This document shows positions 2,300 through 22,982 of a DNA stretch of 26,051 bases, piece by piece. The notes beneath the pieces were generated by a model. It did no database searches. It saw nothing but the letters and a program-made list of their open reading frames with translations, and had not been told where the DNA came from. Each line of letters begins with the position of its first letter. The stretch's first letter is position 1. This DNA is from a virus. The stretch lies in IMG/VR virus record IMGVR_UViG_3300001589_000144, positions 1 through 26,051 of that record; one strand, written 5' to 3'. A program made the translations under genes and the position numbers.

Positions 2300-3996
2300 T
2301 GGGTTTAGAAAAAGTAATAGTAAAACAAGTAGTTAAAGTAGCTAAGGATACTGGTAAGTTAGAAACTGCTCTTTCTTTAATGGATGAAAAGATAAAAGGT
2401 TTAGGAAGAAATGCTATTGAAAAAGCTGGGATAGATCCTTCAACTTTACCTATTAATTTAGATGATCTTTTAGAGGGAAGAGCAGATGATGCTGGGTCGT
2501 TATTAACACCTCAAGCAATTTGTAGTGTACCTCCTTTAACCCAATCCCAAAAAGAAGAAGCTATATCTAATGTAGATAATACCTTAACAACTCTTAATAA
2601 TATAATTGAAAATAAAAATAAAATAGCAATAGCATTACAAACTATACAACAACCGTTACGAACATTAGATGCATCAGCATCAGCATTAGATAATATTATA
2701 TCTACAGTAAAGGTAGCTATAAAAGTAATAAAAGCTATTCCAATACCTACATCAGTCCCACCTGGAGTAGGTATCCCTATAAATGTTTTAACAATACTTT
2801 CAGATTCTTTAGATCAGTTAGATAAATTATTAACATATGGTAAGGGAGTTACAACTGTTGTGCCTTTATTAATTAGAGCGGTACTTAACATGATCACTGC
2901 TATTATTAATAAATTAAATTCTTTAGAATCAGTTATAGAACCAACAATAATTACATTACAATTTGTAAAAACAATATCAGAAGTAGGGGACCAATGCCCC
3001 AATTTACCCCAAGATGAAATAAATAAAGTAAAAACAGCAATTATAGCTACTATAACAGAATCTATTGCGGCCTCTGGTGAAAATTCATCTTTGGGGGTAA
3101 ATGTATCATCAGATGAACAATTAGCATCTCAATTAACACCCAATGCATCACCTGGGATATATTACAAAGGATTTAGATTAACATTAGAAAATGAACCTGA
3201 TAATGAATTTTCCTTTCCATCAAGAAGAATATCAGCTACAAGGGATTTTGCAAAAGATCCTTCTACACAATATATTTATGGGGGGTTAAAAGAATTAGGT
3301 GGGTTTAAAGCACCAAAGATATTAGGTGTAATAACAATATACAATGCTCCCGAAAGAGAACCTCAAGGAAGATATTCTTACAGTGCTTCTACTCAAGTTT
3401 TATTTGAAGAAATGAAATATGCTATTGATTTATATGTAAATAAAATATCAGTAAGTAGAAGAGTTGAGAATGAAATTCTAAGAGAAATTCCAACTGGGGG
3501 AGGTGAAAATCTACCTTTAAATCCATTTGGACCAAATGGTGAAAATAATTTAAATCCTTATGTTTTAAATGGTCCTAATATAGTAACTCCTGTAGATGAA
3601 TTTACAGGTAATCAAGTATCAGGAACAATAGTAGTTAATGAACCTATTAGGGTGATAATGACAACTAATGGTGGAAATACATCAATGAGTTTAACCAATA
3701 CTATAATTACATTTCAAAAAGGAAATAAACCTATGAATGCCCAATTAAGTCGGGAAGCATATGTTACAAGAGGTATTGTTTCATCAACAGCTCCTTCAAT
3801 ATTAACAGAAAAAGGTATATGGAATTATACTATGACAATAGTAGAAAATCTTGGAAATACTGGTAACCAATCCAATTTTCAAATAATGCCTGTTTTACCT
3901 CAAGGAGGTGATAATAGCGGAGGTGGAAGTGGTGGAGGTGTAGGTAATGACACTGTAATTATAAATAGTGACGATAGTTCCACTACTTTACTATAA
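2299..3996 (+). CDS. Tail/baseplate structural protein of unknown role, helical N-half and beta C-half
   Basis: The protein has 565 residues in two halves. Residues 1-260 are helix-rich, with long hydrophobic-amphipathic stretches (about 130-230, interrupted by a Pro/Gly-rich turn at 148-160), as in hub or tape-measure-like proteins. From about 286 it becomes beta-rich, starting with YYKGFRLTLENEPDNEFSFP and a SRRISATRDF turn. Near 350-400 comes a STQVLFEEMKYAIDLYVNKI helix. The last 40 residues include a GGGSGGG linker and an acidic Ser/Thr tail. There is no signal peptide. It is TAATG-coupled to the spike gene and upstream of gp25 and gp6 homologues, so a hub or inner-baseplate role is likely. 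I do not recognise a named T4 counterpart; gp29-like or gp27-like functions are possible but unproven. Confidence 0.6.
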   Translation: MGLEKVIVKQVVKVAKDTGKLETALSLMDEKIKGLGRNAIEKAGIDPSTLPINLDDLLEGRADDAGSLLTPQAICSVPPLTQSQKEEAISNVDNTLTTLNNIIENKNKIAIALQTIQQPLRTLDASASALDNIISTVKVAIKVIKAIPIPTSVPPGVGIPINVLTILSDSLDQLDKLLTYGKGVTTVVPLLIRAVLNMITAIINKLNSLESVIEPTIITLQFVKTISEVGDQCPNLPQDEINKVKTAIIATITESIAASGENSSLGVNVSSDEQLASQLTPNASPGIYYKGFRLTLENEPDNEFSFPSRRISATRDFAKDPSTQYIYGGLKELGGFKAPKILGVITIYNAPEREPQGRYSYSASTQVLFEEMKYAIDLYVNKISVSRRVENEILREIPTGGGENLPLNPFGPNGENNLNPYVLNGPNIVTPVDEFTGNQVSGTIVVNEPIRVIMTTNGGNTSMSLTNTIITFQKGNKPMNAQLSREAYVTRGIVSSTAPSILTEKGIWNYTMTIVENLGNTGNQSNFQIMPVLPQGGDNSGGGSGGGVGNDTVIINSDDSSTTLL

Positions 3997-6656: not shown

Positions 6657-8531
6657 ATGGCAATATATAAAATTTTTCCTACAAAAGATACATCACTATA
6701 TAGTGAAAAAAAGGCAATGAATACCGGTTTGGATGAGGTAATAGAAGCATCAACTTATCTTAAAAATAGCAATCCACAAGTTAGTAGATATTTATTAAAA
6801 TTTTCACAACCAGAAATTAATGGTTGGGTTAACACTTATATATCAGGATCAGGAGTAACAGTACTTAATACAGATATAGGTGGATCTGATCTTTTATATG
6901 ATCAAACAATGACATCATCTGCTAACTACCCAACACAATCAGATGGTGTAGGATATATAACACCTTCATGGGATTTAATACCATCTTCCTCAACAGGAAA
7001 TGGAAGAGGACAACATTTTAATGTTCAAACACATGGAACTTACTTTATACCTAATAGAGATATAGTAGATGATTTAGTAATTACTCCTACATTTACAGCA
7101 AATGATGGTACTTATGGTCCTTTTATTATATCAAATGATGATGTACAAAATACAGTTACAACATCTTCTTTAAGTGCTTCAATAAATTTAGTAGTTAAAG
7201 ATAATAAAGTAATATCTGCACCCATAGTAAATAATGGATCTGCTTCATATGTAAGTCAAGATTATTTTTCATATTTTGATAATAATGATATTTATTTAAC
7301 ACCTGCAGCTATAGATTCAACTGTAGGAGCAGGAGTATTTACATTTGCTGCAGCTTATCCTGATGATACTTTTTATTTTAAAATTCATGCTGATGATTTA
7401 GTAACAACAGTTACAGTTTTAGAAGCACAACCACCTTATGGAATAGGTTACAGACCCGGAGATAAGTTAATATTTAAATCTGAATCATTTGTAGGTTACC
7501 CAATGTCAGATGATATAAAAATAACATTATCATCACCAGCCATATCGTCATCTAATTGGAGTGATAGAGAATTTGGAGTAGATTTAAGAAACTCAGCGGC
7601 AGTAGTTAATGGTTTAAATATAGATCAAGAATTAAAAGTATACCCAATATCAGGAAGTTGGGGAATGGGTAGTGGTAAATTTTTCAATAAACCCCAAACT
7701 ACAGATGGTGCAAGTTGGATATTTAAAACTTATTCTGGATCAGATGCTGGTGCTTTAAAATGGCAAACTACAGGGGTATATGGAGATAAAGCAACTGCTT
7801 CTTTTATAGTAGGAGAAGAAGGAGGAGGTAATTGGTATACAGGTTCAAATGTTAATTTAAATGTTATTCAATCTCAAGTATTTTCATATGGTATAGGTGT
7901 TGATTTAAATGTAGATGTAACAAATACTATAAAAACTTGGACAACTAATTCTTTAAATGATAATAATAAGGGTTTTCCAAATGATGGTTTTTTAGTAAAA
8001 CAATCAAGTTCAAAAGAATTCATTAATAGTAAGGCAACTACAGCAACTTTTAGATATTTTTCGATTGATACAAATACTATATATCCCCCATTATTAGATT
8101 TAAAATGGAATGATTATTATTATGATACAGGATCTTCAAGTAATACTATATTAACAACACCTGAAGCATTTATGTCTATTTATAATAATAATGGTACATA
8201 TTATTCTCAAAGTGTTGAAAGATTTAGAATAGCAGCTATTCCTAAATACCCAGATGTAGTTTTCCAAACATCATCATTATACACAACTAATTTTTATTTG
8301 CCAAAAGATTCATCTTCATATGCTATTAAAGATACAGATACTAATGAATTTGTAATTCCTTTTGATAATACTTACACACAAATTAGTTCAGATGCAACTT
8401 CTAGTTATTTTGATGTTTATATGAATGGTTTAGAACCTGAAAGATATTATACAATTTTAATAAAAACCGTAGTTGATGGAACTACTCACGTATTTGATCA
8501 AGACACAATATTTAAAGTAGTCAATGGATAA
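6657..8531 (+). CDS. Baseplate/tail-fibre-like structural protein with a recurrent beta module
   Basis: The protein has 624 residues. The N-terminus (YKIFPTKDTSLYSEKKAMNT) and the segment VDVTNTIKTWTTN plus DGFLVKQSSS (about 417-455) resemble DNRLRE/carbohydrate-binding-type beta domains: a stabilising Asp-Thr start and a DVTxxIxxW...GFLxK finish. Inserted between them, at about 165-296, are one clear copy (GIGYRPGDKLIF near 261-272) and one weaker copy of a beta module also found in the giant protein and the 441-residue protein. The C-terminal 100 residues (RFRIAAIPKYPDVVFQTSS onward, with PFDNTYTQISSD and GLEPERYYTIL) form a separate immunoglobulin-like unit. The position just after gp6 suggests a peripheral baseplate role. 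The next gene overlaps its end by 8 bases. Confidence 0.65.
   Translation: MAIYKIFPTKDTSLYSEKKAMNTGLDEVIEASTYLKNSNPQVSRYLLKFSQPEINGWVNTYISGSGVTVLNTDIGGSDLLYDQTMTSSANYPTQSDGVGYITPSWDLIPSSSTGNGRGQHFNVQTHGTYFIPNRDIVDDLVITPTFTANDGTYGPFIISNDDVQNTVTTSSLSASINLVVKDNKVISAPIVNNGSASYVSQDYFSYFDNNDIYLTPAAIDSTVGAGVFTFAAAYPDDTFYFKIHADDLVTTVTVLEAQPPYGIGYRPGDKLIFKSESFVGYPMSDDIKITLSSPAISSSNWSDREFGVDLRNSAAVVNGLNIDQELKVYPISGSWGMGSGKFFNKPQTTDGASWIFKTYSGSDAGALKWQTTGVYGDKATASFIVGEEGGGNWYTGSNVNLNVIQSQVFSYGIGVDLNVDVTNTIKTWTTNSLNDNNKGFPNDGFLVKQSSSKEFINSKATTATFRYFSIDTNTIYPPLLDLKWNDYYYDTGSSSNTILTTPEAFMSIYNNNGTYYSQSVERFRIAAIPKYPDVVFQTSSLYTTNFYLPKDSSSYAIKDTDTNEFVIPFDNTYTQISSDATSSYFDVYMNGLEPERYYTILIKTVVDGTTHVFDQDTIFKVVNG
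7355..7545 (+). repeat. Shared beta module, copy in the 624-residue protein
   Basis: The encoded segment follows the pattern of strands ending in a G-x-G-Y-x-x-G-D-x-hydrophobic turn (GIGYRPGDKLIF) and then a strand (DDIKITLSS). The same pattern appears in the giant tail protein and the 441-residue protein. A weaker, more diverged copy may lie just upstream at about 7150-7335. Boundaries are approximate. Confidence 0.4.
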
Positions 8532-9024
8532 TTATAATGATATAGAAAAAAAAGCAGTTGATTTTACAAATACTAGTGAATTAGTACTTGTAGGAACTGC
8601 AAGTATTCCTCAAGAAGGAACTAATGTAACTTTAATTAGAACAGCATTTAATAGAGAAGCATTTGATGCTACTATTAATACAAAATTTACTGAATTGGGA
8701 GTAGCAGAAGAAGATTTAAGTTTTTTTGATCCTAATTTGGCTACTGTAGAAGATTTTTTTAATATATATAACAATTTATTTTTTATTATCCCTGATTTTG
8801 GGGAAACAAATTCACATGAATTTTTAATTAAAGAAAGTAGTGAAAAAATAGAATATCAAGCAAATCAAGAAGAAATTCAAGCTTTGTTAGATGAAATAGC
8901 GGAATTAAGAGAAACAAATTTACAATTACAAGTAGATATGGCTGGAATATTAGGAGCTAAAAAAGAAATAGATAGAGCTTTAGTAGAAGCTAATAGATTT
9001 GAAAATGTAGAAACTACAGGATAA
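8524..9024 (+). CDS. Coiled-coil virion-cluster protein of unknown function
   Basis: The gene encodes 166 residues. Residues 1-100 are mixed alpha/beta (for example TSELVLVGTASIPQEGTNVT and EDFFNIYNNLFFIIPDFGE). Residues 105-160 form a likely coiled coil with heptad-like Leu/Ile spacing (EEIQALLDEIAELRETNLQL). The start overlaps the preceding stop (ATGGATAA), giving tight translational coupling, and the giant gene begins two bases after its stop. It therefore sits in the middle of the baseplate/tail set and is probably a connector or assembly partner of one neighbour. No catalytic motif, signal peptide or membrane segment is visible. I do not recognise a T4 counterpart. Its MDNYN start superficially resembles the MDNFN leaders at the right end, but the following residues do not match. 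Confidence 0.6.
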   Translation: MDNYNDIEKKAVDFTNTSELVLVGTASIPQEGTNVTLIRTAFNREAFDATINTKFTELGVAEEDLSFFDPNLATVEDFFNIYNNLFFIIPDFGETNSHEFLIKESSEKIEYQANQEEIQALLDEIAELRETNLQLQVDMAGILGAKKEIDRALVEANRFENVETTG

Positions 9025-9026
9025 AA

Positions 9027-12000
9027 ATGGCAAAAGAAATACCTATATCATCTTCAATGCAACAAGTAAACCCATCATTATTATTTGATGATGGTTTTGA
9101 ATTACAAAATAACTCAGTAATTCCAAGTTCTAACTTCTCAGGTTCTTTTACTGAAGGAGTAAATAATATTGAATTTTATATATATAATGCTCAAAAGAAT
9201 ATACAATATTCAAATTATAATTTTTCAGACTATCAAATAACTGCAAATTCACTACCTGCAGGAACCCCACCCGTTGGTCAAACTCAACAACAAGCTTTAA
9301 CTGGATCTTATACAACAAATGAGGTAAGTATAAACCCTGAAAGTGATATATATAACGCTGGATACGGAAATGGTACCTTATATGGTGTTTATAATTTTGT
9401 TAATTATCAATTAAATTCAAACGCATTTGGAAATGGAGATCAATATTACTTATCAGAAATTTCAGGAGATAGAACAGAAATAAGAATAAAATCAAATTAT
9501 ATATCAAATGATCAAATTCAATTATCATATATTCAATTTGAACAAACTATAGTATCAACAGATTTTTTTGATGAGTTTTATATTTCCTTTGGAGAAAATG
9601 AATACCATATTGGTATAAATAGCCAATTAGAATTTGGTAAAGGTCAACCATCTGATGAAGATTATATACAATCATCAGTTTTAATAAAGTTATATGATGC
9701 TCTACCCCCAAATTATCAAATAGGGGATGAATTATATGTTGTTACTAAAACAGCAGAAACTCAAGTATTCGAAGTAGAATTTGAAGCTGATTTAAGTGTA
9801 ATTGATGATACTATAAGTCTAAAAGGCCCTAACACTAATCTATCAATTAAAGATTTTATAAATAATTCAACAACTTATAAAAATAAACAAGAATTATTAG
9901 GTACAAATTCAACTGGTTCTAAAGACCAGTTTATAAATGTTTTAAATAGAAAAGGAATTACATTAACTCCTAATTATTCTACTTCATCATTTGGAGAATT
10001 TGTAAATTTTTCTTCTGCAAAACAAAGAACACAAAACTTTTACGAAAAATTATCTAGAATACAAACATATGAGAATGATATAAATAATATTAACCCAATC
10101 ACATCATCAAATGATACATCTGAAGTTTCATCTAGTATAGCTAGTTTGTATACTAAAATAGAAAATGAAATAAAAAACTTTGATGGTTGGGATTACTATT
10201 TATATTATAATACATCTTCTGATTCATATCCAAAAGATACATCAGATGGGCAAATATATCCTTATCGTCTTTTAAATACTGGTAGTGCTACAGCTTTAAG
10301 ATGGTTAGGTAGTGATGTTGAAAATGATCAATATTATGGGGGAACTTTATTCTCGGCTTCTAGATATGATGATAATAATCAAAATTGGTTATATTATACA
10401 ATACCTACTTTCATTACAGAACAAAGTAATAATGACAATTATGTTGAATTTTGCAATATGGTTGGTCAATCTTTTGATGAGTTATGGTTATATACAAAAA
10501 CTATAACAGCAAAATTAAATACAACAAATGTATTAGATGAAGGAGTTCCTTTATCATTAGCTGATGATGTAATTACATCTTTGGGTTATACAGGATTTGG
10601 AAATAATTATAACAACCAAGATAATTTTATTGGAATGGTTGGTAATGATGATGGAACATTTGTTCCTCCTACAGGGAGTGAATTAATATTAAATTACATT
10701 GCTATAAATAAAGGACAAATAATAAATTATTGGGATCCTGAGTATACGTTTGAAGGATACGTAGAACAATTAATTACTAAAGGATTTCCTTATCCTATCG
10801 ATGCTGTTAGTAAAGAAATATTTAAACGTCTTTATCATAATATGTCTTCTCTTGTAAAAAGAAAAGGTACAGTATCTGGATTAAGACAATTAATTAATAT
10901 TTGGGGTATACCAAATACTATATTAAGAATAAATGAATTTGGGGGTAAAAATAAAGACCAAACAGATGATTATGATTTATGGTATGAGAGATATAGTTAT
11001 GCCTTTACTCCAGTAGCTAATTCTTACAGAGCAAGTGCATCAGCTATAGTTCCATGGATGCCTTTAGAAAGAAATTATATAGCAGATTCAAATGCTTACA
11101 TAGTTCCAGATGGGGTTGCCTTTAGATTTAAAACCACAGGTTATCCATCATCTTCATTTGCTGGGAGTTTTAATAGTCAATCTTTAGCAGTAAAAAAATC
11201 AAATGGTTTAGATGATGATGAGTTTGATTGGGGTATAATGTTAAATTATACAGGATCAACATCAGGATCCTATAGAGGAGCAGGAAATAGTGATTATAGA
11301 GATTGGGCAGAAATGAAATTTTATATTTCAGGAGCTGCTTCAGATGGAGGAAATATAATATCAGACCCAATTTATTTACCATTTTTCGATGGTGGTTGGT
11401 GGTCAGTACTTTTACAAAGAGATTCACATTTACCTTATACAAATAATACTACAAGAACTACTTACACATTATATGCTAAAAATAAAATATATAATGGTAA
11501 TGATGGTAATAGTTTAGGATTTGAAGGATCATCGAGTATAATAAATTTTGATACGAGTTCAGGGGGTGTGTATGGGACAGATGAATATGGAACTGCATTA
11601 TATGGAGCTTATATATCATCATCTATAAATTATGCTTGGAATAAATTTGGAGTCAAACCAGTTGATGGGGTTTATATTGGGGGTAGAATTAAAGGTTCAA
11701 AAGTAGGAACTACTCTAGTAACAAATATACCAGGTCAAGCCTTTTCAGGATCTTTTCAGGAATTTAGATATTATTCTAATGATATAAGTGAATCTGTATT
11801 TAATGATTTTGTAATGAATCCTGAATCTATTGAAGGGAATAATATAACAGGATCAGAGAGTTCATTTGATGTAGTTAATTTTAGAGCCCCTTTAGGTAAT
11901 GAATTAGAAAATTTCTTTACATCTTCTGATCAAGTAACCCAATCAGCTTATATTGAACATTTATCCTCGTCTCACCCAGCAATAACAGGATCTTCGGATT

Positions 12001-15000
12001 TATTAATAACCGGGTCATTTATAAATCCTGCTGATAATTCTATAACATCAAGTTATAATATTACATATGAAGAAAACTCACAAAGGAGAACATTTAGTAA
12101 AACTAATGTAGAAACTTACTTTTTAGATCAACCTGCTATTGGTTTTAGAAATAGAATTTCAAATAAAATTCAAAATACTCAAGATTTAAATTTTGGAAAT
12201 ACATTATCAGGTTTAGTAAGTATAGAAAAAGATCCATTTATAAGTCAAAGTTATACTGAAAATTTAAATCAATTAGAAGTTGCTTTTTCACCCCAGGATG
12301 AAATAAATGATGATATTATTCAATCTTTAGGATTTGGTGCTATACAAGAAGTATTAGCTGATCCTAGATTTAGATCAAGTACATCTGATTATTATCCACA
12401 ATTAAGAAAAATTGCTGATGATTATTTTAAAAAATATCAAGGGGGTAATGTATATGATTATTTAAGATTAATAAAATTCTTTGATGATTCATTATTTAAG
12501 GCAATTAAAAACTATGTCCCAGCTCGTACAAGTGTGTCTACAGGTATTGTAATACACCAAAACATGTTAGAGCGCAATAGGTATCGAGAGCCAAAAATGG
12601 ATATAGTTACTACACAATCTTATGCTATAACTAATATACCTTTAACTGCTAAAAATTTAGAGTTAACAGGTAGTATTGAAATGTTTGAATTTACAGGTAG
12701 TACAGGAGGTAGTTTAAATAAATATAATATAACAAGTTCACAATCAGGCTATTATGGGTTTACTACTGATGACCCAATGAATATTACCCCAGAAAGTTAT
12801 ATAAATATTAATTCACAAACTTCTAATTTTATAAATTTAATCCCAGGATTTAACCCTCCAGAACTTGTAGGTGACATTTATGGAGAAATTAATAATGATT
12901 TTAGTGATGGTAGCGGAAATGATTTTAATAAAATACCTTATTTAAAATCTAAAAAAGCAATACAAACACATTTTAGCATTTATGCAAAAACCTCTAATAT
13001 TACTAATACTGATATTATTATTTCTTCATCATTAAGAGGAGAATTATTTCATAATGAGGGTACGAATTTATTCAATGGGGTTAATTTTATTACTCCTCCA
13101 ATAGATATCATTCCAGAAGAAACAATCGCTTTTTATGCCTATAATCCTAATATAAGTACAGGAACAGCTGTAATAACTGAATTTACAGCAAAAACATATG
13201 ACCCCCAATCACCACCATCATCATTCATAACTTTAGCGGAAGTACCAGATATATCATCATCTTATGATCCATCACCACAGGAATATATTGAATTTAATCA
13301 AACTCCTGTAGGATTTTTAGGTAAACCTGCTAACCAACAATATGAATTTTATGATGGAGAATTTAGTGGTAGTACTTTTTCAACTCACCTTCCTTATTCA
13401 TCTTCATATGTTAATCCATATAACCCTTATTTAAGAGTAAGTAAATATAGTATAGCAAATGATAGGACAGCTAACTTACCTACATCAACTTTTGCAGGAG
13501 GTACATCACAAAATTTTAGGTTGATAAAAAATAGGAATATGTCTAGTAGTATTACTAACTCCCCTAATACAAGTCAGTCTGGTATGTTCAATAATATACC
13601 AGTACAGATAATAACGAGTACAAGTGGATTTGGTACAATATTAGCAACAGTACAAGTAGATAGTGGGGCAATTTTAAGTTTTAAAATTACAAATAATCTT
13701 GCAATTAATTTGGAAATTGGTGACACTTTACAAGTATCATCAGGTGCATTTTCTGGGTTAACAAGTGTTATTAATTTAACAATTCAAGCTGGAGATATAG
13801 GATCGTTTGGTTTACTTGCACCTACTACAGCTACTGTAGATAATTCGGGTAATGACTTCTTTGCATTTTATACAAATGTACCAACAAACTTATTAAATAA
13901 TAGAAAGTATATGCTTTCATTTATGATTTCAAGTTATACTGGAACAGCAGGAAGTAGAATAGGATTATCTAATGTAAATTCAACAGGTGATGTAAATTTA
14001 TTTACTCAAGGGGCAGCTGCAGCTAATTCAAATGGTCCTTTTTCATCATCATTTGAAACAGCATTTATTCCAAATGGATCTAATACATTAGCAGGTAGAA
14101 TATCAATATCTCCAGGATTTAAAGGTGTTATTAGTCAATTTAATATAGCTCCTAATTATGCAGAAGATTCAAGATGGAATGAAATAGCAGCTAATATTTA
14201 TTTAAACCCATTACAACAAGATCAATGGCAAATTCAAAATACACAAAGTATAATATTTGCAAATTCTGAATATAACCCATTAAATAATAATGTAAATTTA
14301 AATAGAAGTAGTAGTACTAGAATATTATTATCATATAATGATGAACAGTATCAACCTGAAAATTTTCAACAGATTATTACTTATTCATTAGATAATACAA
14401 GCCAATCATTATTTGCCGATATCCCAGATAGTAATTATACGCAATTAGCAAGTATAAATCCTAGATATAATGGATCTACTTTACAAAGTTTAAATTATAA
14501 CTTTTTTACTACCTCAGGATCTGTAGGTATGATTAGAGCTTTACCAACATCTCGTTATAATAAAAAGGCACCTGGATATTCATCTAGTGTTGCAGATACT
14601 TTTTTAAATGGTACATCACAATCTCAAGTAACAGGAAAAAATTCCTGGACAGGAGATGTTTCTTATGGTAAAACTGCAGTTATAGATAAACATCCAAAAT
14701 ATATAGCTCATTTTAAATCATCATTTGAACAATATAATTATTGGGATTCTTATCAATATAATATTGATTCATTAATTGAAATCCCCTCAGAAAGTATTGC
14801 TAATAGACAATTTACTCCAACATCACAATTAGTTGATGGTAGTAATGAATATAAAAAAGTAGTTTCCTCTGCATTTGAACCAGGAAGAAAAATGGCAGTA
14901 TCTTATGATTCAATAAAAACATTCAAACAAGATTTAAGTACATTACCTATAGGAAATTATGACATTGGGGGAGGATCAATTGAATTTTTAACTATTAATG

Positions 15001-16757
15001 GTAATGAACAAACTAGAATTACAAATGCTTTATCTTGGTCATATAATTATAAGGGTAAAGTAACAGGTTCAAAACAAGAAGCATTTGAAACACAACTCCA
15101 AACAGGAAGTATTTCTTTTGATACTGGTGGTGAAGACGCCAAACCACAATTACCTATTAAAGGTTTTATATTACAAGGAGCTCAAAATGCTAATATTGTA
15201 TTTAATCAAGGTGTTGGAGGTGTAATTGGAAAATCAACTCCTGTTAGCTTAAATGGTTATTTACAGGTACAAGGACCACAACTAGCACTTTATCATACTT
15301 ATAATACAGCAGTAGCTAAAGAACAACATGCACCCGAACCAGTATGTGTTACCAACCCACCAGTAAACCTATATAAATTAGCATCTAGAGCATCTTGGTG
15401 TAATCAAGGTATACCTCCCTCAAACCCAGACAGTTATTATCAATGGGCCGCTTCAGCATCTCAATGCACGGCTTATTCAAATAATCAAGAACCTTTTTTA
15501 ATACAAAGGGGAGATATAATTAGAGCAGAAGGACAAAAACTAGTTAATGGAACTCCTCTTACTTCTTCAATTAATTTTATTGAAGATTTTACAGTTATGT
15601 CAATAGAAGATTATCATTATTCAGGATCATATGAATTAGCACAATTACTTACAGGAAATAATTTTGACGCACCAGGACCACCTCCAAATGGTGGTGGGGG
15701 TGGTAGATTGAAAAATGCAAGTGGAGTATTTATAGATACTTTAGGTTTAACTGGTACTAATGTTGGAAGTGTACAATTAGATTTAGGAAATACTGGTGGA
15801 GGAAAGGTACAAGTACAAGTACACCTGGTAGGAGCATCAAAAGAAGTAACAGCTTGTTTTATTGCTGATGGAGGAAATACAAATAATAAAAATGCTAACT
15901 ATGCTGTTGGTCAAACTTATACTGTAAACCCCTCAACTTTAGGTGTATCCCCATTTAATGTGGTAATTCAAGTTGGTAATATGAAAAATATAACTGATAT
16001 GTCTACAGGTGCTAGTATTTTAATATCAAACACAGGTTCAGACAATTTCTTTAGTATATCAGACACAGATAATTGTGGTTCTGGTTTTGCATCTAGTCAC
16101 CCATTGGGACAATATACAGTAAAATACCCTACATTTTTAGCAACAGATAGAAATCCTGAAGAAGTATTAATGGGATTAAATAAAGGACAAGTTCAAAGAT
16201 TTACTATAAGAAGACAAACTGAAAATGATTCAAGTGTAATGGGTTATAACATTTATCCACCATCATTAGTTAATAATGATATCTTTGAAAGAAAAACAGG
16301 ACAATTAAAAAATTCATCTACATTCAGTAACGTCACACAAGTGCAAAAAAATGTAGCAGGTGCTACAGCAGGTGATTACCCAATATTAGGAACTTATACA
16401 AGTGGAACAGGTGCTGGGGGTAGTATTACAATCACTGTAAATACATTTGGGAATATTAATCAAGTAAAAACAACACTTACAACAGAAGATACTTCTTTTA
16501 ATTATGTAGCCGGAGAAACAGTAACAATTCCAGGAAGTGTTTTTGGGGGATCAGGTACATTAAATTTTACAGTGTTTGATGATAATTTAGTTGACGATGC
16601 ATCAATAGAATTTGGTGGAGCGGCAGCCCCAACAGGAGAAGGATTTTTAATACCTAAGGATTTAAGTGAAGTCCAAAAAGCAAATGCTTTAGATATAATA
16701 AATCAAGAAAGGTCTAAAAATGCATTTCCACCTAATACACAAGCTCAAACAAGATAA
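9027..16757 (+). CDS. Giant tail/baseplate structural protein, 2576 residues
   Basis: One uninterrupted frame of 2576 codons takes about 30% of the window. Recognisable parts are as follows. The segment PIDAVSKEIFKRLYHNMSSL, then RKGTVSGLRQLINIWGIP (about 589-630), is typical of large baseplate proteins. About 695-945 looks like a LamG/concanavalin-like jelly roll (DGGWWSVLLQR, GVYIGGRIKG, FSGSFQEFRYYSNDISESVF). About 1145-1190 contains FFDDSLFKAIKNYVPARTSV and IVIHQNMLERNRYREPKM. Three beta modules like those in neighbouring genes lie at about 1528-1592, 2246-2320 and 2454-2520. A GGGGG hinge lies near 2220. TGS-type turns are frequent throughout. It follows gp6 in the place where T4 has gp7-gp10, so I infer a wedge/arm or fibre-anchoring role. 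Exact function and possible cleavage are unknown. Confidence 0.72.
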   Translation: MAKEIPISSSMQQVNPSLLFDDGFELQNNSVIPSSNFSGSFTEGVNNIEFYIYNAQKNIQYSNYNFSDYQITANSLPAGTPPVGQTQQQALTGSYTTNEVSINPESDIYNAGYGNGTLYGVYNFVNYQLNSNAFGNGDQYYLSEISGDRTEIRIKSNYISNDQIQLSYIQFEQTIVSTDFFDEFYISFGENEYHIGINSQLEFGKGQPSDEDYIQSSVLIKLYDALPPNYQIGDELYVVTKTAETQVFEVEFEADLSVIDDTISLKGPNTNLSIKDFINNSTTYKNKQELLGTNSTGSKDQFINVLNRKGITLTPNYSTSSFGEFVNFSSAKQRTQNFYEKLSRIQTYENDINNINPITSSNDTSEVSSSIASLYTKIENEIKNFDGWDYYLYYNTSSDSYPKDTSDGQIYPYRLLNTGSATALRWLGSDVENDQYYGGTLFSASRYDDNNQNWLYYTIPTFITEQSNNDNYVEFCNMVGQSFDELWLYTKTITAKLNTTNVLDEGVPLSLADDVITSLGYTGFGNNYNNQDNFIGMVGNDDGTFVPPTGSELILNYIAINKGQIINYWDPEYTFEGYVEQLITKGFPYPIDAVSKEIFKRLYHNMSSLVKRKGTVSGLRQLINIWGIPNTILRINEFGGKNKDQTDDYDLWYERYSYAFTPVANSYRASASAIVPWMPLERNYIADSNAYIVPDGVAFRFKTTGYPSSSFAGSFNSQSLAVKKSNGLDDDEFDWGIMLNYTGSTSGSYRGAGNSDYRDWAEMKFYISGAASDGGNIISDPIYLPFFDGGWWSVLLQRDSHLPYTNNTTRTTYTLYAKNKIYNGNDGNSLGFEGSSSIINFDTSSGGVYGTDEYGTALYGAYISSSINYAWNKFGVKPVDGVYIGGRIKGSKVGTTLVTNIPGQAFSGSFQEFRYYSNDISESVFNDFVMNPESIEGNNITGSESSFDVVNFRAPLGNELENFFTSSDQVTQSAYIEHLSSSHPAITGSSDLLITGSFINPADNSITSSYNITYEENSQRRTFSKTNVETYFLDQPAIGFRNRISNKIQNTQDLNFGNTLSGLVSIEKDPFISQSYTENLNQLEVAFSPQDEINDDIIQSLGFGAIQEVLADPRFRSSTSDYYPQLRKIADDYFKKYQGGNVYDYLRLIKFFDDSLFKAIKNYVPARTSVSTGIVIHQNMLERNRYREPKMDIVTTQSYAITNIPLTAKNLELTGSIEMFEFTGSTGGSLNKYNITSSQSGYYGFTTDDPMNITPESYININSQTSNFINLIPGFNPPELVGDIYGEINNDFSDGSGNDFNKIPYLKSKKAIQTHFSIYAKTSNITNTDIIISSSLRGELFHNEGTNLFNGVNFITPPIDIIPEETIAFYAYNPNISTGTAVITEFTAKTYDPQSPPSSFITLAEVPDISSSYDPSPQEYIEFNQTPVGFLGKPANQQYEFYDGEFSGSTFSTHLPYSSSYVNPYNPYLRVSKYSIANDRTANLPTSTFAGGTSQNFRLIKNRNMSSSITNSPNTSQSGMFNNIPVQIITSTSGFGTILATVQVDSGAILSFKITNNLAINLEIGDTLQVSSGAFSGLTSVINLTIQAGDIGSFGLLAPTTATVDNSGNDFFAFYTNVPTNLLNNRKYMLSFMISSYTGTAGSRIGLSNVNSTGDVNLFTQGAAAANSNGPFSSSFETAFIPNGSNTLAGRISISPGFKGVISQFNIAPNYAEDSRWNEIAANIYLNPLQQDQWQIQNTQSIIFANSEYNPLNNNVNLNRSSSTRILLSYNDEQYQPENFQQIITYSLDNTSQSLFADIPDSNYTQLASINPRYNGSTLQSLNYNFFTTSGSVGMIRALPTSRYNKKAPGYSSSVADTFLNGTSQSQVTGKNSWTGDVSYGKTAVIDKHPKYIAHFKSSFEQYNYWDSYQYNIDSLIEIPSESIANRQFTPTSQLVDGSNEYKKVVSSAFEPGRKMAVSYDSIKTFKQDLSTLPIGNYDIGGGSIEFLTINGNEQTRITNALSWSYNYKGKVTGSKQEAFETQLQTGSISFDTGGEDAKPQLPIKGFILQGAQNANIVFNQGVGGVIGKSTPVSLNGYLQVQGPQLALYHTYNTAVAKEQHAPEPVCVTNPPVNLYKLASRASWCNQGIPPSNPDSYYQWAASASQCTAYSNNQEPFLIQRGDIIRAEGQKLVNGTPLTSSINFIEDFTVMSIEDYHYSGSYELAQLLTGNNFDAPGPPPNGGGGGRLKNASGVFIDTLGLTGTNVGSVQLDLGNTGGGKVQVQVHLVGASKEVTACFIADGGNTNNKNANYAVGQTYTVNPSTLGVSPFNVVIQVGNMKNITDMSTGASILISNTGSDNFFSISDTDNCGSGFASSHPLGQYTVKYPTFLATDRNPEEVLMGLNKGQVQRFTIRRQTENDSSVMGYNIYPPSLVNNDIFERKTGQLKNSSTFSNVTQVQKNVAGATAGDYPILGTYTSGTGAGGSITITVNTFGNINQVKTTLTTEDTSFNYVAGETVTIPGSVFGGSGTLNFTVFDDNLVDDASIEFGGAAAPTGEGFLIPKDLSEVQKANALDIINQERSKNAFPPNTQAQTR
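13611..13803 (+). repeat. Shared beta module, first copy in the giant protein
   Basis: The encoded segment runs from TSGFGTILATVQVDSGAI through NLEIGDTLQVSSGAFSG to NLTIQAGDI. It matches the strand - gly turn - (Y/L)xxGDTxxV - strand layout of the module seen in the 441- and 624-residue proteins. Boundaries are approximate. Confidence 0.4.
15761..15990 (+). repeat. Shared beta module, second copy in the giant protein
   Basis: The encoded segment has GGGKVQVQVHLVGASKEVTA, then NYAVGQTYTVNPSTLG and FNVVIQVGN, the same order of elements as the other copies. It begins some 60 bases after the Gly-rich hinge (GGGGG), consistent with a discrete unit. Confidence 0.4.
16389..16590 (+). repeat. Shared beta module, third copy in the giant protein
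   Basis: The encoded segment has GTGAGGSITITVNTFGNINQ, then NYVAGETVTIPGSVFGGSG and TLNFTVFDD. It is the clearest match in the giant protein to the copy in the 441-residue protein (GIGGTVNVTVESNGTIS ... GYSIGDLIGISL ... GTGLITFTL). Confidence 0.5.
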
Positions 16758-16788
16758 TTAATATAATTTGGAGTAAAAAATAAATTTA

Positions 16789-16801
16789 CGTATATTTATA
16801 A
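16789..16801 (+). promoter_or_regulatory. Putative late promoter CGTATATTTATAA
   Basis: This site lies in the 59-base gap after the giant gene, the longest gap in the window, and ends 15 bases before the ATG at 16817. The 15 bases 16782-16796 (AAATTTACGTATATT) match 14 of 15 with the site upstream of the primase (20415-20429). Nothing else is recognisable in the gap, and no terminator hairpin is seen. Confidence 0.55.
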
Positions 16802-16816
16802 CTAAAATAATAGAAC

Positions 16817-17497
16817 ATGGGATATTTAAATAATCAAGTCATTACAGTTGACGCTATTTTAACCAAAAAAGGAAGAGAATTACTTGCATTAGGTGATGGT
16901 TCTTTTAATATAACTCAATTTGCTTTATCTGATGATGAAATTGATTATACATTGTATAATCCAAACCACCCATCAGGATCAGCTTACTATGGTGAAGCTA
17001 TAGAAAATATGCCCTTACTAGAAGCATTCCCAGATGAAAATCAAATGATGAAGTATAAACTTGTTACTTTACCAAGAGGAACAGCAGTAATGCCTTACAT
17101 ATCAGGAGTTCCTGGTAATATAAAAGAAGCACAAGGAGATTCATTTACACTTAATCCTTCTACCCAAAATTATTTAAATGGGGGAACTGAAACATCAGGT
17201 TATTCATTTACTCTTTCAGATGCTAGAATTGTTCAAGCAAATGGGTTTATAGGAAGTGGTGGAGATGAAGAAATAACGAAAAGATTAGAAGCACAAAATT
17301 CAAGTACTAGTATAACTAATGGTACTTCTACATCAATAACAACTATAGGTACTACTTGTAAATTAACCTTTACAGGAGTTGGTACTTTATTTTCAAATAA
17401 TACTCAATTATTTGCTTCTTTAATTGTTATTGGGTTAGATAGTGGAGCAAGAGTACAAATACCAATAACAGTAACTAGAAGTAGTCAAGCAAGTTAA
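16817..17497 (+). CDS. Conserved virion-cluster protein of unknown function
   Basis: The gene encodes 226 residues. The N-terminal half is the distinctive part: MGYLNNQVITVDAILTKKGR, then ELLALGDGSFNITQFALSDD with EIDYTLYN, and ENMPLLEAFPDENQMMKYKL. I recognise this as a conserved type in T4-like marine phages, where it sits among tail genes, but know no assigned function. The C-terminal region is Ser/Thr-rich beta sequence (about 160-226), ending in RVQIPITVTRSS. There is no signal peptide, Cys motif or membrane segment. The gene opens a new transcription segment behind a late-promoter-like site and is followed after 27 A/T-rich bases by the first of two paralogous genes, so the three are probably co-expressed. 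Confidence 0.62.
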   Translation: MGYLNNQVITVDAILTKKGRELLALGDGSFNITQFALSDDEIDYTLYNPNHPSGSAYYGEAIENMPLLEAFPDENQMMKYKLVTLPRGTAVMPYISGVPGNIKEAQGDSFTLNPSTQNYLNGGTETSGYSFTLSDARIVQANGFIGSGGDEEITKRLEAQNSSTSITNGTSTSITTIGTTCKLTFTGVGTLFSNNTQLFASLIVIGLDSGARVQIPITVTRSSQAS

Positions 17498-17524
17498 AAA
17501 GCTTTAAATAAAAAATAAAAAATT

Positions 17525-18592
17525 ATGGCAGATCAACCAGGAGCATATATAACATTAGACCCAGATAATGATAAAGTATTAAGTACTGACTCAGTAACGG
17601 CAGCAATGTGGAGTGCTAATAATCCAACATTAAAAACGTACTTTTCAAGCTCAATTCAAGCTTCAAGTGCAGTATCACAATATTATATATCAGTTTATCA
17701 AACAGCATCAACTGAAGTATCAGCAGAAATACAATTTGATGTTGCCTACTGTGATTCAGTAGGAAGTGGTAGTGAATTTTTAAATAATTTAGTAACAGGA
17801 TCAACTCCTACAAGAACTAATTATGGTCAATATAGAAATTTAGTATTGGGAGATGAAAATTCAACCTTTATATTTGGTAACCAATCATCATCTTATTTTT
17901 ATGCTTTACCAATAGAAAGAGCAAGATATAAACAAGAAATACTACCTGGTACATGGACAATGAATATATCAGGAACGGCTGATGGTTCTAACCAATTAAC
18001 TTTAACAGATGATAGTAAAGCTACAACTACAACAACTTTTACTGATGCAGGTAGAGTTTACAATATAGTATCAGGATCAGCAGGGGTTATTAACCAAACA
18101 GTAAATACAAGTGGTTGGACAGAAAACTCAGGATCATATGGTTGGGTTTTACCAGATGTAGATTTATTATTATTAAATGGAGAAGCGTTAGATGGTTTAA
18201 AAGCTGATGGTGGTTTACAATTAAATACTAGTCGTTCATATGATACATTAGGTAATAATCCATTTAGAATAATAGATGCTTTAAGAAGATCAGGTAATCA
18301 AATAAATAATACTTTAGGTTTTACTCTTAATTCAAAAGAAGATTTATCATCTGATTTTATATTTTGCAGAGCTAGAAATTCTGAATATAATTACTCCTCA
18401 AACCCATCATTTATTTCATCTTCAACAGGTGCCGTTGTATTTGATTCATTTATAAATAATCCAACAACATATATAACAACTGTAGGATTATATAATGCTG
18501 CTCAAGAATTATTAGCTGTAGCAAAATTATCAAGACCATTAGAAAAGAATTTTACAAAAGAACTTCTTGTAAGAGTTAAATTAGATTTTTAA
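17525..18592 (+). CDS. Virion structural protein, paralogue of the next gene
   Basis: The protein has 355 residues and is beta-rich throughout. Its C-terminal region (SEYNYSSNPSF at 286-296; TTVGLYNAAQELLAVAKLSR at 318-337; LLVRVKLDF at the end) aligns with that of the following 441-residue protein (NEYSFTSNPSS; VTTIGLYNELYQLIAVGKLS; FIVNFDTW). The middle also matches in layout: an (A/S)IPxxxxxxxIxPxxxxx strand pair, a DD turn, then VYNIVSGSAG here against IFYSQGIAIFTG there. It is probably a tail or neck component, but no T4 counterpart is apparent. A 27-base gap of A/T runs precedes it, without a promoter-like core. No secretion signal is seen. Confidence 0.62.
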   Translation: MADQPGAYITLDPDNDKVLSTDSVTAAMWSANNPTLKTYFSSSIQASSAVSQYYISVYQTASTEVSAEIQFDVAYCDSVGSGSEFLNNLVTGSTPTRTNYGQYRNLVLGDENSTFIFGNQSSSYFYALPIERARYKQEILPGTWTMNISGTADGSNQLTLTDDSKATTTTTFTDAGRVYNIVSGSAGVINQTVNTSGWTENSGSYGWVLPDVDLLLLNGEALDGLKADGGLQLNTSRSYDTLGNNPFRIIDALRRSGNQINNTLGFTLNSKEDLSSDFIFCRARNSEYNYSSNPSFISSSTGAVVFDSFINNPTTYITTVGLYNAAQELLAVAKLSRPLEKNFTKELLVRVKLDF

Positions 18593-18598
18593 AATGGA

Positions 18599-19924
18599 AT
18601 GGCTGTATTTAAACAATTCAACACTAACGAAGTAGTTATAGCTCCATTTAATGCAAATAAAAGATTTGCATATAGTGGTTTTGGGATAACAGCCTCTGAT
18701 GTAGGTATAGAATATTATCAATCACAGCAAGGACCTTACACATCCGGATCTAATCCTACAGGATTTACAACAATATTAGATGGAGTATGTTTATTTGGAA
18801 GTATTAAACAATTATATTATTCAAATTATTTAACATCATCATTTGGTGACAATGTTACAACTGGAAGTTTAGTATTAGGAGTTACTTCTGAATTTAATGA
18901 AATAGTTGGCCCTATAACAGGTCCTAGATTTGATAATTTTTTACAATCCTCAGTTACTCAATCTAGATATTTTGCACAATTTTCAGCATCAAAAACAGAT
19001 CCAACAGCTCCTATAGGACCTTCAATAATATCTATACCTTCAAATTTATTTGGTGAAGTAATACCTTGTGAACAATTTCAATTTGAATATACTTCATCTC
19101 AAAATTATACAAGAAGTTTAGTTAAAGATGATGGAGAAGGTAATTTAATGGTTACTTATAATAGTGGGGAAGCAAGACCAGGAGTAGCAAATCCATCAAC
19201 CCAAGAAAAAGTAGGAGATATATTTTATTCTCAAGGTATAGCAATTTTTACAGGACCTGATAGCGGGTCATTAAGAAATTTCCCAACACTTATGGGGGCA
19301 GATGGTACAAATTTTAATAATAATGTACAATCATCATCAATACAATTTTCTTCATCTATTCAACTTAGAGAAAATCAATATAAATGTGTTGTAAGAGACA
19401 ATGAATATTCTTTTACATCTAATCCATCATCTTTAAGACCTTTAGGACAATTAAATGTAGCACCAAACCAACTATCAGGATCAATTTCAGCAACTAATTA
19501 TAATGATGGGGGGGCTGCTGGGGTTTATGAAATTTCAATCCCATCATCTCCATCAACAAGTGGGATAGGAGGTACTGTTAATGTTACCGTAGAATCAAAT
19601 GGAACAATTTCAGATATAACAGTAATTAATACAGGGAGAGGGTATAGTATTGGAGATCTTATAGGCATTTCTTTATCTTCTACAGGAGGAACAGGACTTA
19701 TAACATTTACACTAACATTAAATGATATATCTAATTTTGGAAGTGCAGGTCTTAATGAAACTTATTATGATTTTGCAACAGGATCATATTTTTCACCTTA
19801 TGTTACTACTATAGGACTTTATAATGAATTGTATCAATTAATAGCTGTAGGTAAATTATCACAACCTATACCAATTTCATTATATGTGGATACTACGTTT
19901 ATAGTTAATTTTGATACATGGTAA
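18599..19924 (+). CDS. Virion structural protein, paralogue of the preceding gene with an inserted beta module
   Basis: The protein has 441 residues and shares its C-terminal layout with the 355-residue protein upstream. NEYSFTSNPSS (268-278) and VTTIGLYNELYQLIAVGKLS (402-421) are separated by about 125 residues here but only about 22 there. The extra 100 residues carry one copy of the recurrent beta module (about 300-378, with GYSIGDLIGISL). The N-terminus (KQFNTNEVVIAPFNANKRFA) differs from its paralogue. An alternative ATG at 18594 is in another frame. The next gene starts within its final codons (ATGGTAA). It is probably a tail/neck or fibre-attachment component; the exact role is unknown. 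Confidence 0.62.
   Translation: MAVFKQFNTNEVVIAPFNANKRFAYSGFGITASDVGIEYYQSQQGPYTSGSNPTGFTTILDGVCLFGSIKQLYYSNYLTSSFGDNVTTGSLVLGVTSEFNEIVGPITGPRFDNFLQSSVTQSRYFAQFSASKTDPTAPIGPSIISIPSNLFGEVIPCEQFQFEYTSSQNYTRSLVKDDGEGNLMVTYNSGEARPGVANPSTQEKVGDIFYSQGIAIFTGPDSGSLRNFPTLMGADGTNFNNNVQSSSIQFSSSIQLRENQYKCVVRDNEYSFTSNPSSLRPLGQLNVAPNQLSGSISATNYNDGGAAGVYEISIPSSPSTSGIGGTVNVTVESNGTISDITVINTGRGYSIGDLIGISLSSTGGTGLITFTLTLNDISNFGSAGLNETYYDFATGSYFSPYVTTIGLYNELYQLIAVGKLSQPIPISLYVDTTFIVNFDTW
19500..19735 (+). repeat. Shared beta module inserted in the 441-residue protein
   Basis: The encoded segment (GIGGTVNVTVESNGTISDIT ... GRGYSIGDLIGISLSS ... GTGLITFTLTLND) is absent from the paralogous protein upstream. That comparison supports its being a discrete insertion and roughly sets its limits. 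Similar segments occur in the giant and the 624-residue proteins. Confidence 0.5.
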
Positions 19925-22154: not shown

Positions 22155-22982
22155 ATGGATAACTTTAACTATAAAAAATATATAGCAGAAGGTAAATTAT
22201 TAAAAGAAGCTTCCGACAATCCTAAAGCAATTATATTAGCAGGTGCTCCTGGTGCTGGTAAAGGTTATATTTTACGTGGTTTAGATTTATCAGGTTTAAC
22301 TACTTATAATTTAGATTTAGATTTTGTTCCTTTACTTAAAAAAGCAGGTGTTAGTTTAGATTTAAAAAATGCTACTCCTGAAGAAAGAAGCACATCATCT
22401 AAATTAATGAGGCAAGCAGCTTCAAAATTAAAAGATGAAGATTTACCTAAGGCAATAGCAAGTAGAGAATCATTTATATTAGATGGTACAGGAGCTTCAA
22501 GTCGTGCTACTATTAAATTAAAAGATGAATTAGAGAATGCCGGGTATGATGTATTTATGCTCTATGTTTATACAGATTTAGAACGTTCACTAAAACAAAA
22601 TCAAGATAGATTTGATAAATCTGGAGGTGAAGATAGAAGTTTAGCCCCAGCTATTGTTATGACTACTTGGAATGATGTTACTCAAAATTATAATTTATAT
22701 AAAAGTACATTTGGTAATAACTTTATATCAGTAGCAAATACTTTAAAAGATGAAAAATTAGATAATTTAGAAGATATAATAAGTAAGTACTTAACTCCAT
22801 ATAAACCACAAGGAACAAAACCTAAAGATGCTAAAGCACAAGCAAGATCAGACAAGAGAAAAGCTTCAATTAATGCTCAAATTAAGGCATTATTAGCAGA
22901 CGATGGTGTTAAAAATGTTATTGATAATTCGGTTTCAGCAGAGGAAGCTCAAGCAAAACTTAAATCATTTATAAATGGGTAA
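22155..22982 (+). CDS. Zeta-toxin-like P-loop kinase with a packaging-type leader
   Basis: The protein has 275 residues. After an 18-residue leader (MDNFNYKKYIAEGKLLKE) comes a P-loop kinase domain: KAIILAGAPGAGKGYIL with Walker A G30-x4-G35-K36 (the usual Ser/Thr after Lys is Gly), a YNLDLDFVP segment (51-59), and FILDGTGASSR (107-117). This is the layout of zeta-toxin/AAA_33-type kinases; zeta toxins phosphorylate UDP-N-acetylglucosamine and block cell-wall synthesis. The C-terminal 60 residues are Lys/Ala-rich helical. Leader residues YIAE resemble the end of T4 internal-protein leaders, which the prohead protease cuts after Glu. It is expressed behind a late-promoter-like site and overlaps the next start (ATGGGTAA). 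Other substrates (nucleotides, RNA ends) remain possible; no epsilon-type antitoxin is visible next to it. Confidence 0.72.
   Translation: MDNFNYKKYIAEGKLLKEASDNPKAIILAGAPGAGKGYILRGLDLSGLTTYNLDLDFVPLLKKAGVSLDLKNATPEERSTSSKLMRQAASKLKDEDLPKAIASRESFILDGTGASSRATIKLKDELENAGYDVFMLYVYTDLERSLKQNQDRFDKSGGEDRSLAPAIVMTTWNDVTQNYNLYKSTFGNNFISVANTLKDEKLDNLEDIISKYLTPYKPQGTKPKDAKAQARSDKRKASINAQIKALLADDGVKNVIDNSVSAEEAQAKLKSFING

Follow-up and report, generated by a model that had tools for sequence, protein, structure and literature searches.

What is repeated in the tail genes of IMG/VR virus record IMGVR_UViG_3300001589_000144, and does it move? The stretch analysed (positions 1 to 26,051 of the record; hereafter the window, 26,051 bases) covers the baseplate/tail region of a T4-like phage, and three of its proteins, of 624, 2576 (the giant protein) and 441 residues, contain similar beta-rich segments in otherwise different surroundings. 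A sequence-only reading had placed these segments at 7150-19735, a range that does span the first copy in the 624-residue protein to the copy in the 441-residue protein, and had taken them for one freely moving decoration or adhesion unit that spreads between tail genes. Profile comparison shows that they belong to one homologous domain family, a module of ~70-85 residues with the core G.G..(v).v.v...g.I..i.v.n.G.GY..GD.i.i, and alignment of relatives shows that the module is inserted in frame into unrelated virion proteins, with conserved sequence on both sides. Taken as a whole, the observations are probably best explained by a promiscuous accessory domain of virion proteins.

One domain family in three tail-region proteins

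A hidden Markov model was seeded with the copy of the 441-residue protein alone and iterated over 1,481 distinct open reading frames from 103 sources (relatives are designated by L and a number). The set was still expanding slightly (from 68 to 71) at the final, sixth iteration, at which 71 domains scored above 15 bits, all of them in homologues of these three proteins; of 5,924 decoys made by reversal or shuffling, none exceeded this threshold (top decoy, 8.6 bits). Since iterated profiles absorb their own matches, the profile was retrained without the family under test, using the copies of the other two families and 24 cyanophage copies. Two low-scoring matches (L012_365_152 and L054_1581_1345) were removed from the training sets of these leave-family-out tests and of the test on relative L161 described below.

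Scored in this way, the 441 copy reached 39.1 bits (expect value, E, 5.5e-11), and all 13 module-bearing homologues of its family were recovered. The giant protein yielded 20.7 bits at residues ~2424-2541 and 8.7 bits at ~1498-1609 (best of 374 decoys, 6.9). A score of 10.7 bits was obtained for residues 236-302, the second copy of the 624 protein, where the top decoy of 704 had 5.7. The first 624 copy (128-241) stayed at 5.3 bits, not above the decoys; its orthologues at the same place in L030, L031 and L033 scored 7.5-12.3 bits. The test missed the giant copy near residue 2254. By these scores, four copies in the window hold, a fifth is supported through its orthologues, and the giant copy near 2254 is unproved (Table 1). 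The earlier list of copies therefore stands for the 441 protein (one clear copy), for one clear and one weak giant copy and for two 624 copies, neither strong alone, and fails at the third giant copy, which found no independent support. In the 624 family, the 13 proteins that scored above every decoy are exactly the 13, among 64 complete homologues, that carry an insert. The profile grown from the 441 copy thus reached all three protein families, no decoy coming near its scores, and the profile search that had been proposed as a check recovered many copies.

A chance similarity of Gly/Ser/Thr-rich beta segments without common descent could account for the weak mutual likeness of the window copies: when these were compared profile against profile with hhalign, only one of 15 pairs was strong (441 versus giant 2456, probability 94%), one was middling (441 versus the second 624 copy, 28%) and the remaining 13 were weak. 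The profile A1, built from 24 of 39 de-duplicated module copies, also matches antibody light chains by composition. This explanation is contradicted by the iteration without drift or high-scoring decoys, by the leave-family-out scores, by the coincidence of scoring with insert-bearing proteins (13/64) and by highly significant cross-matches among cyanophage virion families at the module only. It is refuted for the 441 and giant 2456 copies, possible for the giant 2254 copy and, for the family as a whole, very improbable.

With tblastn, single copies matched none of 50,697 phage records at E up to 1; a BLAST-level search is therefore too weak for this family, and profiles are required. The GC content of the modules (26.7-35.2%) is near or slightly above that of their own genes (29.4-31.1%) and is uninformative on their origin.

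Table 1. Positions in the window of the host genes, module copies, inserts and exchanged cassette.
Feature	Position	Strand	Basis
624-residue baseplate-region protein (host protein 1)	6657..8531	+	directly 3' of gp6-like baseplate wedge gene; relatives in Flavobacterium phage immuto and Microcystis phage Mel-JY01
Insert of 624 protein, residues ~57-302	6825..7562	+	1-9 residues in most homologues
Exchanged cassette, gene nucleotides ~178-780	6834..7436	+	mismatch distribution between phages
Module copy 1 of 624 protein, residues 143-222	7083..7322	+	found by iteration; supported via orthologues
Module copy 2 of 624 protein, residues ~223-298	7323..7550	+	weak, above decoys
2576-residue giant tail/baseplate-region protein (host protein 2)	9027..16757	+	homologues in immuto and Mel-JY01
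Weak giant copy, residues 1510-1595	13554..13811	+	hhalign score to A1 20.9 over 80 columns, against at most 15.2 for 11 control segments
Putative giant copy, residues 2236-2323	15732..15995	+	7.4 bits by iteration, below best decoy (8.6); not independently supported
Giant insert site C, residues 2414-2520	16266..16586	+	present in window and L026, absent from 8 other giants compared
Clear giant copy, residues 2438-2525	16338..16601	+	leave-family-out score; hhalign to 441 copy
441-residue protein (host protein 3)	18599..19924	+	C-terminal 40 residues in common with 355-residue neighbour
Clear 441 copy, residues 300-378	19496..19732	+	leave-family-out score; AlphaFold2 model

Filled sites, empty sites and cassette exchange

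Complete homologues of the 624 protein (n = 64; 66 before incomplete reading frames were dropped) fall into 12 with a two-module insert, one with a one-module insert (L036) and 51 with none; 52 of the 64, with near-duplicates left out, make up the alignment A2. The junctions are clean, the distance between the conserved motifs '..SRYLI.FS..EI..V' and 'L...AAVV.GL' being 1-9 residues in module-free proteins, 98 in L036 and 234 in the window. In the 441 family, the module is present in 13 complete homologues and absent from the 9 complete best-matching ones. Besides site C (Table 1), the giant proteins have a site B, filled in just 2 of 10 aligned giants (L029 and L033) by a 311-residue insert, which holds two profile-detected modules, probably also a third, and lies inside a conserved stretch resembling a LamG hairpin (a label assigned from reading the sequence). 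Three relatives (L050, L051 and L060) combine a module-free 624 homologue with a module-bearing giant protein, and sites are therefore filled or empty independently. In L161, which a scan with the 624 modules picked out and whose 624 homologue is 79% identical to that of the window, an extra module of ~86 residues occupies a new site at window residue ~374; this third copy scored 17.4 bits with a profile trained on no 624 copy.

The distribution of mismatches shows that related phages trade the 624 insert as a cassette, and two independent pairs have similar breakpoints. The 624 genes of the window and L024 show 43 differences over their first 177 nucleotides, 5 over the following 591 (the cassette) and 173 over the final 1,104; identity is 99.2% in the cassette and 76-84% in the flanks. 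The genes of L025 and L027 differ at 58 positions within 595 nucleotides (192-786) and at 1 elsewhere, and 1,490 of 1,500 upstream bases are identical. The 5' breakpoint coincides with the start of the insert (residue ~59-64) and the 3' breakpoint lies inside module 2 (residue ~257-262), nearly at the same points in both pairs. When synonymous differences in the insert were compared with those in the rest of the gene, 18 of 66 pairs among twelve 624 genes were significant after Bonferroni correction, the insert being less diverged in 16 and more diverged in 2. Because the synonymous differences agree, purifying selection is not the cause of the low cassette divergence. The ~85 residues ahead of module 1 (624 residues ~57-142), which have no profile match, travel with it in the exchanged cassette.

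An old, vertically inherited domain with repeated loss and little mobility would fit the 441 family, all 13 module-bearing members of which hold the module at the same place, with module and remainder co-diverging in most pairs. It is hard to reconcile with the cassette exchange, with the additional copy that a single close relative carries at a new site, with an insert in 2 of 10 giants within the conserved LamG-like stretch, and with the three relatives in which modules occur in the giant protein beside a module-free 624 homologue; we regard it as distinctly unlikely. The modules might also have no function and be tolerated in surface loops as filler that recombination carries along. Many relatives live without them, and within the 441 family divergence of the module outpaces that of the remaining protein (identity 51-59% vs 73-77%, and 30-36% vs 64-66%). 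What makes this unlikely is that reading frame and core motif are retained over great divergence, that the within-module ratio of nonsynonymous to synonymous changes is well below 1 in close pairs (e.g. ~0.1-0.4 in the L012-L019 set), and that copies have been multiplied into arrays in large proteins. The accessory-domain explanation is accordingly preferred, and its evolutionary part (family, insert and exchange) is very probably right. The word 'freely moving' in the sequence-only reading is in keeping with the filled and empty sites, the new-site copy in a 79% identical relative and the cassette exchange.

Distribution among marine phages, predicted fold and function

Segments of this kind, which the sequence-only reading had noted for marine phage structural proteins, are indeed common there by PHROG scans, six-frame searches and predicted-fold matches. 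The 24 aligned copies matched PHROG families of cyanophage baseplate wedge, virion structural, head closure and tail fibre proteins, phrog_6005 being hit by 12 of the 24 at E up to 1. When nine phage genomes were searched in six frames with A1 (E 0.01), 42 matches turned up in six of them (ACG-2014h, 12; P-SSM4, 15; syn9, 9; P-SSM2, 3; pelagiphage HTVC008M, 2; T4, 1) and none in immuto, Mel-JY01 or the uncultured phage LR756508. All except one lie in genes annotated as virion components; the remaining match falls in a hypothetical gene between gp8 and gp13. A match was also found in 12 of 22 IMG/VR relatives.

The module-bearing proteins of cyanophages and a pelagiphage belong to the baseplate (gp7, gp8, VrlC), the neck (gp14) and the fibres. 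An insert in gp8 of five marine phages scored 9.9-22.9 bits, whereas gp8 of T4 (334 residues) is without it. The neck protein gp14 carries the module in syn9 (16.3 bits), ACG-2014h (8.7) and, more weakly, P-SSM2 (4.6), and lacks it in P-SSM4 and T4. The T4 neck family of Pfam spans only residues 22-192 of syn9 gp14, of which residues 220-296 match about nine unrelated virion PHROGs (E down to 9e-13); likewise, cyanophage gp8 matches many other virion PHROGs at the module only (E to 1e-10). The gp14 module is 45-54% identical to modules of P-SSM4 gp7. Comparison of A1 with the 24 cyanophage copies by hhalign gave a probability of 96.6% over 65 columns, a value that is not independent, the cyanophage set having been gathered with A1.

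Several further observations were made in other phages and contigs. The 90 and 112 kb contigs L164 and L165 contain a gp7-like frame of 7,523 residues with about nine head-to-tail module copies in ~2 kb, as well as scattered ones, and L163 encodes (2623-3354) a 244-residue protein with one central module (30.8 bits), a fourth kind of small host protein. A second segment, F.VGE.I.G.TS....A.VKS.D..TR.L.V.N..G.F, recurs in neck, baseplate-region and VrlC-like proteins (L140 47797-48723, corresponding to P-SSM4 gp14, residues ~203-291; L144 13436-16486; L141 32977-40152) at 38-48% identity over 65-85 residues and may, to judge from its sequence, be another promiscuous module.

The 441 copy was modelled by AlphaFold2 with a 24-row alignment, giving five strands and short helices in 81 residues (predicted local distance difference test, pLDDT, 84.2; predicted template-modelling score 0.69). 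Foldseek found no solved structure in the PDB at E 0.001 or better (best, 0.96), and a VIA search gave no Z above 3.2. Among predicted viral proteins (BFVD), the leading named rows listed were virion proteins of Synechococcus and Prochlorococcus phages, with query-normalised template-modelling (TM) scores up to 0.72 and a moderate best E of 0.006. The expectation that all copies share one fold was not refuted, as the one confident model, of the 441 copy, matches other phage virion proteins; the 624 insert was left unfolded, and a single fold for all copies is no more than possible. A PDB search with the full 624 model returned diffuse beta-protein matches only (best E 0.003), which are uninformative on the insert.

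Several points weigh against a mobile accessory domain. The exchange test compares sequence pairs that are not independent of one another, and in the 441 family only 1 of 78 pairs is significant, which indicates little module exchange. Metagenome contigs may be chimeric; yet the pattern is seen in several of them. The full 624 model has a good scaffold and an insert with pLDDT <50 nearly throughout residues 64-302, and the 441 copy is the sole window module modelled alone. Finally, identity across gene families is at most ~37% in this phage group and the cross-gene similarity therefore old: the window giant copy is nearest to the 441 copies of L019 (35% over 82 residues), the L036 624 copy to the giant copies of L013 and L033 (36-37% over ~80). 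With such low identities, recent spread between different tail genes is not demonstrated; the proposed spread between tail genes holds as homology, and only as an old event, although one cyanophage neck/baseplate pair reaches 54%.

The accessory-domain explanation suggests the following course of events. A module would first enter a surface loop by rare illegitimate recombination and would then pass from phage to phage through homologous recombination within the conserved flanks. Less securely, it may fold as a small self-contained barrel pointing away from the scaffold and serve as an exchangeable surface pad, which could dock fibres or neighbouring virion proteins or weakly bind host glycans, as domain I of the T4 sheath protein gp18 might lead one to expect. 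A function in surface docking or adhesion, two roles that the data do not tell apart, has about an even chance of being correct. A purely host-touching role is disfavoured because the module also occurs in a neck protein.

Marine T4-like phages encode many giant structural proteins that lack annotation; these would become readable if one recognisable unit explained much of their size variation. Natural filled and empty pairs of the same protein (624, giant, gp8 and gp14) allow direct functional tests of a mobile virion domain, and the cassette exchange shows recombination acting inside tail genes at a fixed loop. The module is a good lead to how ocean phages remodel their outer surface.

The gene series of the window runs from gp25-like and gp6-like proteins to those of 624, 166, 2576, 226, 355 and 441 residues, in the same order as in immuto and Mel-JY01. 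Counterparts there are shorter: those of the 624, giant and 441 proteins have 369, 1265 and 357 residues in immuto, and those of the first two have 386 and 1336 in Mel-JY01. The 355 (17525-18592) and 441 proteins are paralogues with a common C-terminal 40-residue unit, TTIGLYN...LIAVGKLS.P. Five proteins of Mel-JY01 (L002 21888-30834) have the same end, three of them behind long unrelated N-terminal parts, as if the unit were a common attachment end. A 523-residue frame at 22975-24546 seemingly fuses three parts, which resemble in turn a nucleotidyltransferase, a metalloprotease and a HAD protein (read by eye). The likeness of the 624 C-terminus to the PhiCb5 coat protein (E 0.01) was below the cut-off and taken as chance.

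Comparison with known systems

Promiscuous accessory domains on phage virions are already known as a kind. Fraser et al. reportedly described in 2006 promiscuous immunoglobulin (Ig)-like domains on phage structural proteins and proposed weak binding of host carbohydrates. Known phage Ig-like domains are often C-terminal or added by frameshift. For this module, Pfam and PHROGs hold no name or function, and whole window proteins matched no named domain of either database at the module positions. No description of the module was found in the literature searched (including passages of PMC7029224, PMC10684548 and PMC3037559), in which subscription journals are thinly covered, so that it may be described elsewhere.

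Sheath proteins acquire extra Ig-like domains, which are said to be exchanged horizontally, and such extra domains have been proposed to aid adhesion or stability (PMC9230969). The module behaves in the same way, as an accessory beta domain scattered promiscuously over unrelated virion proteins, and might accordingly be a known Ig-like domain diverged beyond recognition. It differs in its placement in mid-protein loops and in having no sequence match or significant fold match to Ig: a Pfam scan of the 24 copies at E up to 1 returned no Ig or BIg family, chance-level matches aside (a negative that leaves the fold itself possible), five strands and short helices make up the 81-residue model, and Foldseek listed antibody chains only at E >3 with TM under ~0.32. 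An Ig origin is on this evidence quite improbable. The match of A1 to antibody light chains among PDB sequences covers ~20 columns and was read as Gly/Ser-rich composition, not as Ig homology.

The closest counterparts are the cyanophage and pelagiphage families PHROG 438 (gp8), 460 (gp14), 6005, 701, 5342, 32294, 2885 and 697, which contain the same module by profile and predicted fold, and differ in that they often form long tandem arrays and that gp8 and gp14 are different host proteins. A survey of domain mosaicism based on named ECOD domains likewise reports domain shuffling, in baseplate and receptor-binding proteins; its available text mentions neither cyanophages nor the module (PMC10684548). 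In a chemostat study, early mutations arose in gp8 and fibre genes of a cyanophage under host resistance, their position within gp8 being unstated in the excerpt (PMC9910659).

The only A1 match in the T4 genome is domain I of the tail-sheath protein gp18 (E 0.0016). Alignment of A1 with gp18 by hhalign gave a probability of 25% with one gp18 sequence and 79% with seven, over only 19-20 columns around G-x-N-Y-x-V-G-D-x-I; the score was equalled by 1 of 400 column shuffles, that outlier reaching ~130. Pfam PF22639 (Gp18_dom_I) matched one of 24 module copies, at E 0.0074 only, and gp18 domain I was absent among the Foldseek and VIA matches listed for the 441 model. Domain I (residues 98-188) is an inserted six-stranded barrel with a helix, and protrudes outside the subunit contacts; its binding partners are the baseplate and, in their retracted state, the long tail fibres, and mutations in it block fibre retraction (PMC3004832). 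The module resembles it in sitting as an insert inside other virion proteins. It differs in that only a motif of 20 columns matches, and in the strand order around this motif as read from the sequence. The five strands and short helices of the 441 model may or may not correspond to the six-stranded barrel and helix of domain I. Possibly, though doubtfully, the two belong to a distinct non-Ig family of mobile beta-barrels, with domain I as its one characterised member, that would serve as interchangeable docking or adhesion pads across the entire outer surface of T4-like marine virions (sheath, neck, baseplate and fibres), traded as cassettes at fixed loop sites in the co-evolution of phage and host. 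As it stands, gp18 domain I is a lead and offers the best functional analogy for the module, as distinct from membership in one family.

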